Assembly (NCBI RefSeq): GCF_007748035.1
Contig: NZ_CP036278.1
Location: 186,001 to 250,000 of the forward strand
Reading direction: 5' to 3'
Source: Aeoliella mucimassa
Lineage (GTDB): Bacteria; Planctomycetota; Planctomycetia; Pirellulales; Lacipirellulaceae
DNA: 64,000 nucleotides
The translations under genes and the position numbers were made by a program. Shown here piece by piece: positions 50,224 to 50,869 of the stretch. A model generated the notes under the pieces. It searched no databases, had not been told where the DNA came from, and saw only the letters and a program-made list of their open reading frames with translations. Within the stretch, counting starts at the first letter, position 1, and the number at the start of each line of letters is the position of its first letter.

Positions 50224-50251
50224 TTGACCCTTGTTGCCGATTTGATATAAT
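50224..50251 (+). promoter_or_regulatory. Near-consensus sigma70 promoter of an RNA unit
   Basis: TTGACC (50224-50229) and TATAAT (50246-50251) with a 16-bp spacer. The -10 is perfect and the -35 has one mismatch. It fires on the plus strand between two minus-strand kinase genes, so it serves neither. This is among the strongest promoter matches in the window. Confidence 0.7.
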
Positions 50252-50257
50252 AGAGGT

Positions 50258-50409
50258 GTAACGAGTTTGGTCCTTATCTTTCTGTTTTCAACAGGAGGCC
50301 AACCTATGGAAGATCCGCCTTACAGGCACTGGGGAGGCTGAGCTTTCGGTAGCGAGAGCTACTGCTAGCATGCCTCAAACAGTCACTTTTCTGTCCCAGT
50401 GGTTTTTTT
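50258..50409 (+). ncRNA. Candidate structured RNA ending in an intrinsic terminator
   Basis: About 150 nt downstream of the promoter. Hairpins: CTGTT-TTC-AACAG (50282-50294); an 8-bp stem AGCTTTCG/CGAGAGCT (50341-50360, one G-U, loop GTAG); GAGGC (50334-50338) with GCCTC (50372-50376); and the outer stem CACTGGG (50327-50333) with CCCAGTG (50395-50401). Seven T residues follow at 50403-50409. No motif of tmRNA, RNase P, SRP RNA or common riboswitches was found. The fold and terminator support a real transcript; its identity is unknown. Confidence 0.5.
50306..50341 (+). CDS. Possible 11-codon leader ORF in the RNA unit
   Basis: ATG at 50306 is preceded by AGGAGG with a 7-bp gap and reads MEDPPYRHWGG before a TGA at 50339-50341. 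The codons overlap the 5' strand of the terminator stem (50327-50333), so translating ribosomes could block terminator folding. No gene follows on this strand. It may be a chance ORF, but the Shine-Dalgarno match is strong. Confidence 0.35.
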   Translation: MEDPPYRHWGG

Positions 50410-50671
50410 GACACAAGGAGTTGTACCAAGCGAAGTAGGCTTGGTCGCCTCGGCGAACAGCTCGCCTTGCTTTCGTGTTGAGTTTTGCATCGTACGCACG
50501 TGCCTCGCGAAAAAGGCCGACATCGCTCGGCAGTAGGCACACTCAACTGCCTTGTAGGGCAGCGCTCAACTAACACGAGTAGCTCGTCGTTGCTTTCGCA
50601 CGCAGGCGCTCCGGCTGGATAACGGCAAGGCCCTTGTCGCCTCTATTTGTGCGGCAAGGGCCTGTGTTTTT
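50410..50671 (+). ncRNA. Second structured segment ending in a strong terminator
   Basis: Beyond the first T-run lie closely packed hairpins: ACCAAG/CTTGGT (about 50426-50446), GGCGA/TCGCC (about 50453-50466), GTGCCT/AGGCAC (about 50500-50540) enclosing GCCGA/TCGGC, and CTGCC/GGCAG (about 50557-50571). GTTGAG near 50477 can pair with either of two CTCAAC copies (about 50552 and 50565). A terminator ends it: AGGCCCTTGTCGC (50628-50640) with GCGGCAAGGGCCT (50651-50663), then TTTTT. It may be a read-through extension or a separate RNA; no second promoter was seen. Confidence 0.4.
50628..50671 (+). terminator. Intrinsic terminator, 13-bp stem
   Basis: A 13-bp stem with one G-U pair (50628-50640/50651-50663), 10-nt loop and a T5 run at 50667-50671. 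It is nested inside a perfect 10-bp inverted repeat CACGCAGGCG (50599-50608)/CGCCTGCGTG (50698-50707). Confidence 0.75.
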
Positions 50672-50869
50672 ATATAGGCCATGCTCAGCGATTGCAACGC
50701 CTGCGTGAGCAAAGGTCTCCTCTGTTTCTCGCAGCAATCTTCTTGAGTTCGCATCGCTGTTCTCGATGCGTCGCTGCTATCTTCACTCGATTCTCAACTC
50801 GCGCGTGATAGTCGATTTGCCTCTTCCAATGGTGGCAGGCGAACTGTCTCGCTGCGCGAGTAACCCGCA

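Follow-up and report, generated by a model that had tools for sequence, protein, structure and literature searches.

Judging from sequence comparison, the plus strand of the window, i.e. the whole 64,000-nucleotide stretch of Aeoliella mucimassa DNA that was analysed, carries at 50258..50673 what looks like a single RNA unit with its own promoter-like site and terminator. The unit, its promoter, its Shine-Dalgarno (SD) sequence, the start of a tiny ORF, the position of a hairpin (P2) and the terminator are supported; that the RNA is transcribed and translated, with ribosomes pausing on it, we infer. Our tentative reading, which we hold to be quite possible if short of probable, is that of a stand-alone RNA of ~415 nt with a proline-pause leader module following a logic like that of mgtL and mgtQ. 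The following features were assigned:

50224..50251, plus strand: predicted sigma70-type promoter, TTGACC-16-TATAAT, with an extended -10 (TG precedes), 11 of 12 consensus matches
50258..50673, plus strand: putative single transcript of ~415 nt, its start deduced from the position of the -10
50293..50298, plus strand: Shine-Dalgarno sequence AGGAGG, 7 nt before the ATG; folding of the window RNA predicts it to be paired
50306..50341, plus strand: tiny ORF MEDPPYRHWGG*, with a six-residue start pattern common to 14 of 14 homologues
50327..50401, plus strand: hairpin P2, arms CACTGGGG (50327-50334) and TCCCAGTG (50394-50401), with its base at position +22 relative to the start codon
50403..50409, plus strand: T7 directly 3' of P2 (after one G), which would make P2 terminator-like
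50410..50444, plus strand: block B, GACACAAGGAG and then a hairpin CCAAGC (50426-50431) / GCTTGG (50439-50444)
50609..50612, plus strand: CTCC able to pair with GGAG of block B (50417-50420) and so to close the 3' domain, in individual and consensus folds
50628..50671, plus strand: predicted intrinsic terminator, stem 50628-50663, loop motif CGCCTCTNNNTGTGCG (50638-50653), then T5 (50667-50671)

The near-consensus promoter of the preliminary description was confirmed (11 of 12 matches, TG before the -10), and it was the one match found in a region where shuffles gave an expectation of 0.5. Promoters were located at a like distance from the mini-ORF in G001 (TTGACC-17-TATACT) and G003 (TTGACG-17-TATATT), this distance being 54 to 58 nt in all three genomes, and a promoter-like site with at least 9 of 12 matches was present in 8 of the 14 homologues, that of the other 6 being weaker. 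Both flanking genes encode protein kinases (Pfam) on the minus strand, so that the RNA does lie opposite to both, as had been stated. Folding of the window RNA from -50 to the terminator gave a z of -6.4 against 15 shuffles. The first part, a 150-nt segment in which an outer stem followed by T7 had been reported, contained the stem, a G and the T7 and gave z = -2.6, with 5 of 200 shuffles folding equally well; the second part of 263 nt, reported as packed hairpins with a terminator and T5 at the end, gave z = -4.1, with 0 of 200 shuffles folding equally well, and ended in the stem at 50628-50663. All 12 RNAs tested folded better than the mean of their 15 own shuffles (z -1.6 to -7.4), and the distance from start codon to terminator ranged from 205 to 448 nt across homologues.

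The preliminary description had left the choice between one and two small RNAs; a single one now looks the better choice, given the joint recurrence of the 5' and 3' blocks and a T7 after the first hairpin that was peculiar, among the homologues read, to the window. Two separate sRNAs were rejected on the co-occurrence of the two blocks in G001, G003 and, as detected by independent models, G037 and G005. By eye, the homologues read had no T7 immediately after P2, and a conserved attenuator composed of P2 and T7 was discarded, the T7 right behind P2 being found in the window only. The central proposal of an undescribed plus-strand RNA with its own transcription signals was upheld by blocks that recur together in two relatives at another locus.

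Upon a blastn search with 521 bases against 97 genomes (the own genome and relatives), clear collinear matches were obtained only in G001 (E 1.5e-17) and G003 (E 6.7e-13); of the weak matches (E 0.003 to 1), that in G005 (E 0.0097) later proved real, and few others were inspected. G001 and G003 carry the RNA at one common locus, flanked by a small exported protein on one side and a peptidyl-prolyl isomerase/aroB pair on the other (own reading). The locus in the window is a different one, which suggests that the unit is a gene in its own right and did not remain behind from its neighbours. Covariance models built from three blocks (R1, terminator; R2, SD and ORF; R3, block B) were run on 43 genomes of the window's family, Lacipirellulaceae. 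In G037 and G005 the independent models R1 and R2 both matched, on one strand and ~330 nt from each other; R1 alone matched in G018 and G042, and R2 alone in G034 and G025. Pattern searches of the order, covering 396 and 376 genomes, matched 12 and 14 genomes, with 2 and 4 matches in the reversed controls, and the pattern of an SD followed by M-x-x-P-P-D yielded G055, G071, G087, G095 and G153. In total, 14 homologues were accepted, 9 among the 43 family genomes and the remaining 5 spread over four further families of the order; this spread is patchy, and 14 among the 396 order genomes sampled is a lower bound, the patterns being strict. The possibility raised beforehand, that the region would lack conservation in relatives, therefore did not come true, homologues having been found.

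Several candidates were set aside on reading: G045, G245, G373 and G327 of the first order pattern search as coding or chance; G049, G349, G178 and G286 of the second, G049 seeming to be antisense to a coding frame; and the weak model matches in G039, G015, G029, G032, G009, G021, G008, G026 and G022. The genus member G002 (2.8 Mb assembly) gave only a weak blastn match (E 0.056) with no block convincingly shared, and none in the covariance-model searches. A wider spread in the phylum was rejected: in 119 genomes there were 2 pattern matches, one lacking an in-frame start codon and one in unclear context, both set aside, and the reversed control gave 8. An origin from phages, plasmids or viruses was likewise dropped, three patterns being unmatched in viral contigs and blastn giving no match in plasmids and phages. 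According to simple ORF calls (G001 corrected by hand), the nearest downstream ORF was convergent in 9 of 14 homologues, the window included, in the same direction in 4 (G005, G025, G055 and G071) and undecided in G034. It was also noticed by eye that LuxR-type HTH-like small ORFs lie near the RNA at two loci (L054 and L059, in G018 and G042), and that a protein-kinase-like frame follows the RNA in G042; kinases flank the RNA in the window.

By its appearance the RNA is not purely non-coding, as a conserved SD-primed tiny ORF at 50293-50341 had been overlooked. SD and mini-ORF sit in the first ~90 bases of the transcript. AGGAGG is the best conserved 5' block in the window, G001 and G003, and it is followed by ATG, ATG and TTG, respectively, with the frame kept; the corresponding peptides are MEDPPYRHWGG, MEDPPYGQLRSIVAADFVAS and MDDPPYSYLRGVLFG. 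In all 14 accepted homologues, M-[EDQ]-[DSNT]-P-P-[DY] stands behind an SD-like sequence, that of G042 being deviant (AAGGGGAG). The start codon is ATG in 10, GTG in 3 and TTG in 1, codon 2 specifies Glu, Asp or Gln, codon 3 Asp, Ser, Asn or Thr, and codon 6 Asp or Tyr, whereas codons 4 and 5 are Pro in 14/14 (codon 4: CCG 12, CCA 2; codon 5: CCG 7, CCT 4, CCA 3). Half of the homologues (7 of 14) have Gln at codon 2, so the acidic part of the peptide is not fixed. From codon 7 onwards little is common beyond close relatives, the C-termini being unrelated and the peptides 8 to 31 residues long. The four codons GAT CCG CCT TAC are identical base for base in the three closest genomes, and for this reason a constraint at the RNA level is possible there.

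It should be noted that the ORF was partly required or favoured by the search in 7 of the 14 homologues (the five outside the family, G034 and G025). G018 and G042 were found by the terminator model alone, and both carry an SD and MESPPD.. or METPPY.., respectively, so the ORF test is unbiased by the search in these two. A second ORF behind AAGGAG of block B was rejected, as no shared frame was seen by eye in the three closest genomes. Nor does the mini-ORF resemble, by eye, the hydrophobic toxin peptide of a type I toxin-antitoxin system, its constant part being acidic/polar with prolines and its C-termini variable; the long C-terminus of G025 is partly hydrophobic.

Just past the conserved codons, a helix starts in most of the RNAs, built of unrelated sequences. 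Its arms are CGAAGCATTGT/GCAATGCTTCG in G001, GGAAGCTTGAG/CTCAAGCTTCC in G037, CGAGAGATGGC/GCCGTCTCTCG in G034, TGTCGGAGGAGC/GCTCCTCCGATG in G055 and GAGAGGCTG/CAGCCTCTC in G087. Stems starting at +22..+30 from the start codon were better than those of dinucleotide shuffles (Fisher p 6.8e-8 over 12 RNAs combined, G025 and G071 being omitted as near-copies). Elsewhere the same test gave p 0.98 (+4..+12), 0.99 (+13..+21), 0.89 (+40..+48) and 0.67 (+58..+66), with weaker signals at +31..+39 (p 0.019) and +49..+57 (p 0.0042). Taken individually, P2 had p > 0.1 in 5 of the 12 (window 0.116, G003 0.156, G005 0.27, G042 0.44 and G153 0.65). In partition-function folds, the mean unpaired fraction of +25..+36 was 0.15 compared with 0.36 in shuffles and was below the own shuffle mean in 12/12. 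For the SD it was 0.18 compared with 0.28 (lowest of 15 shuffle means, 0.225), being lower in 8 of 12; in G003, G018, G037 and G095 the SD was not more paired than in shuffles.

Block B is identical in letters in three Aeoliella-genus genomes only, and its model revealed nothing credible outside these three in the 43 family genomes, the next best match having E 0.065. Its pattern, searched in all genome contigs, gave 3 records, namely A. straminimaris, a Pirellulales MAG and a Prevotella, the last taken for chance as no other block was seen by eye. The pair GGAG/CTCC is invariant and hence gives no covariation support. In the consensus fold of three sequences, 20 of 101 pairs had two-sided changes, but numerous pairs were broken and the covariation term was close to zero; the compensatory changes looked for thus did not amount to clear covariation across the whole RNA. 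The preliminary description had also proposed a switch in which GTTGAG (50477-50482) pairs with either of two CTCAAC copies (50542-50547 and 50565-50570). These motifs are indeed present in the window, but neither is kept at the aligned places in the two closest relatives, and the two-partner switch was rejected because the first, alternative partner has no counterpart there and is thus not conserved; pairing with the second copy may persist as a changed helix, e.g. GGTG/CACC in G001 (by eye).

A terminator was detected by script in 12 of 14 homologues, that of G003 with a weak U-run, and by eye G018 and G087 have a hairpin with a weak U-run. The loop motif CGCCTCTNNNTGTGCG occurs at the terminator in 7 of the 9 family homologues, though the stem differs outside Aeoliella. 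In the 43 family genomes it was found at 9 places, whereas its reversed control was found at 8. Such a tally carries no weight by itself; what matters is that 7 of the 9 places sit in the terminator of the unit, the other two being in G012 and G037:C69. The sequence conservation of a terminator loop may point to an additional role. An inverted repeat, CACGCAGGCG / CGCCTGCGTG (50599-50608 and 50699-50708), was noticed to flank the terminator and is absent by eye in G001 and G003; its pairing would rival the stem that closes the 3' domain, or else shape the 3' ends of minus-strand transcripts of the kinase gene. Of seven patterns tried, CTCCG is over-represented behind the mini-ORF: 11 of the 14 RNAs contain 17 copies between them, against 6.7 ± 2.7 in shuffles, 0 of 100 of which reach 17. 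CTCCT is not enriched. The CTCCG copies could pair with GGAG, be it in the SD of the RNA itself or in other mRNAs.

From this anatomy the following course of events is proposed. Ribosomes would load at the strong SD, partly hidden by folding, and translation of M-x-x-P-P-D/Y would slow down or abort at the Pro-Pro step. A bacterial ribosome extends ~15 nt ahead, counted from where its P-site codon begins. During a pause at Pro4/Pro5 the front edge would hence lie at +25 to +28, where P2 has its base in most of the RNAs, leaving P2 closed, and on translation up to the stop codon it would enter the 5' arm and open P2. By arithmetic, with the front edge put at +15, a ribosome that has come to the final sense codon extends to between +37 and +106, beyond the P2 base in 14/14 (P2 bases were entered by hand, some by eye); given these two positions, a Pro-Pro pause would keep P2 closed and completion would open it. 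A plainer explanation of the place of P2 is that structure may begin only past the footprint of the initiating ribosome, a hairpin start after ~+20 being a need of any efficiently initiated ORF. In the proline-pause reading, the deciding state would be EF-P capacity, prolyl-tRNA, Mg2+ or the destabilisation of ribosomes by acidic-proline N-termini. The own genome contains two EF-P-family genes (G000:C1:1202014-1202181 and G000:C1:1920028-1920204; PF08207 over cut-off, frames of 197 and 224 aa), which seem to represent EF-P and a paralogue; mgtL is reportedly EF-P-dependent. How the RNA folds, how long it persists or where it ends would then depend on the translation state, and the RNA would act in trans or simply report. 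With a convergent ORF next downstream in 9 of 14 genomes, classical attenuation is less likely than an effect exerted in trans or on the RNA itself. The attenuator RNA rnTrpL is said to act in trans as well, and the attenuator of rnTrpL/peTrpL reportedly belongs to a trp operon context.

Among other explanations, a dual-function sRNA, with a 3' domain that base-pairs with mRNAs and a mini-ORF that only loads ribosomes or gives a minor peptide with no pause sensing, seems to us rather unlikely. An independent promoter and terminator of the kind found in such RNAs are present here as promoter-like sites and predicted terminators, the neighbours are mostly convergent, and the enriched CTCCG could pair with GGAG-type ribosome-binding sites. 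However, the fixed Pro-Pro and the fixed place of P2 would be left unexplained, and some CTCC copies are already engaged in internal stems (in G055/G071 those of P2 and the terminator, in the window the GGAG/CUCC pairing). SgrS/SgrT and RNAIII are dual-function sRNAs with longer conserved peptides. That the unit is the gene of a bioactive micropeptide followed by a structured 3' UTR would agree with the conservation of SD, start codon and first six residues with synonymous changes, but peptides of 8 to 31 residues with unrelated C-termini, 205 to 448 nt from start codon to terminator and folding superior to the shuffle mean in 12/12 make it improbable. Little probability is likewise given to a structured non-coding RNA in which SD-ATG-PP is an untranslated motif: the base identity of GAT CCG CCT TAC in the three closest genomes is what this predicts, whereas across families both Pro codons show wobble changes and ATG, GTG and TTG replace each other with frame and SD spacing kept.

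A classical cis leader, attenuating a downstream gene, would possess much of what was observed, i.e. a leader ORF with a ribosome-binding site (14/14), an overlapping hairpin that a ribosome could open, as indicated by the helix test and the reach arithmetic, and a terminator, to which may be added the T7 after P2 in the window and the same-direction downstream ORF in G005, G025, G055 and G071. Nevertheless, these four ORFs do not look to be of one kind (by eye), the gene order in the window leaves no sense gene for read-through, and the convergent ORF next downstream in 9 of 14, the window included, argues against an ordinary attenuator, so that we consider this possibility very improbable. 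Chance, with no functional unit at all, is hardly credible; the region is an orphan intergenic one, strict patterns found few relatives, and in two pattern searches reversed matches were about as many or more, yet collinear conserved blocks at a different locus, the co-located matches of independent models and the helix test speak against it, and we regard it as refuted by the co-located matches and the common anatomy in 14 genomes.

A further step, which is possible but doubtful, would be that the RNA represents a new class of free-standing ribosome-pause sensor in Pirellulales, a movable RNA gene that reports EF-P, prolyl-tRNA or Mg2+ state in trans. Translation-sensing leader peptides are known from the front of operons, to which they are attached, and a sensing front end with no downstream gene would be unusual. 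Leader-peptide logic, that is, a Pro-Pro pause and a hairpin at the front edge of the ribosome, would then be uncoupled from operons, and the Met-x-x-Pro-Pro RNA would offer a concrete, short object for EF-P- or Mg2+-dependent translational sensing.

With respect to known classes, the earlier statement that no tmRNA, RNase P, SRP, 6S-type or common riboswitch motif was recognised agreed with Rfam, which gave no credible match in the region: at gathering score the whole window contained only a tRNA elsewhere, the RNA region at E <= 10 gave only E 1.7-4.6, far below gathering scores, and 13 stretches with other homologues gave none at E <= 0.5. Among the matches listed for the open-access literature searched, there was no description of such an RNA and no planctomycete study of such RNAs, and the strings MQDPPD, MEDPPD and MEDPPY were absent from the same literature. 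Two planctomycete terms were absent from the main text of a structured-RNA survey (PMC6429828).

Small RNAs with short ORFs are a known kind (survey, PMC5521070), and codon choice at Pro-Pro pairs as a means of tuning pausing is the subject of PMC8129111. The leader mgtL of mgtA (E. coli/Salmonella) contains a destabilising EPDP motif, is EttA-dependent, and its ribosome has been seen with Pro3 in the P site (PMC11282234). It resembles the present RNA in its tiny ORF with acidic residues and prolines at the start and in that the translation state sets the RNA fold; unlike the latter, after which mostly no sense gene follows, it controls a downstream gene via a Rho-dependent terminator, and acidic residues matter in MgtL, whereas here Pro-Pro is constant and residue 2 often Gln. 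In mgtQ, an 8-aa ORF between mgtC and mgtB of Salmonella, ribosome destabilisation selects among stem-loops overlapping the ORF (PMC8092293). Common to both are a very short ORF with acidic codons and alternative stem-loops overlapping it, but mgtQ frees the ribosome-binding site of downstream mgtB, and its single Pro codon acts by base pairing only (PMC8092293). The Sinorhizobium leader peptide peTrpL, which originates from a transcription attenuator, acts in trans (PMC7298713); rnTrpL/peTrpL is derived from the trp attenuator, whereas no operon lies behind the RNA in the window. Dual-function sRNAs (SgrS/SgrT, RNAIII and yfr6; for yfr6, PMC2864571) are similarly stand-alone, a few hundred nt long and equipped with a short ORF, but here only about six residues are kept, together with a hairpin at a fixed distance from the start codon. 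The Rhodopirellula-1 motif (Weinberg 2010; PMC2864571) is, like the present RNA, a structured RNA candidate reported from Planctomycetes, in its case with Proteobacteria; compared by its table row only, it differs in being marked 'y', taken as cis-regulatory, as opposed to a stand-alone unit. As far as searched, and with Rhodopirellula-1 compared by that table row only, a stand-alone gene that unites a fixed Pro-Pro mini-ORF with a hairpin at the edge of the ribosome appears to be new.
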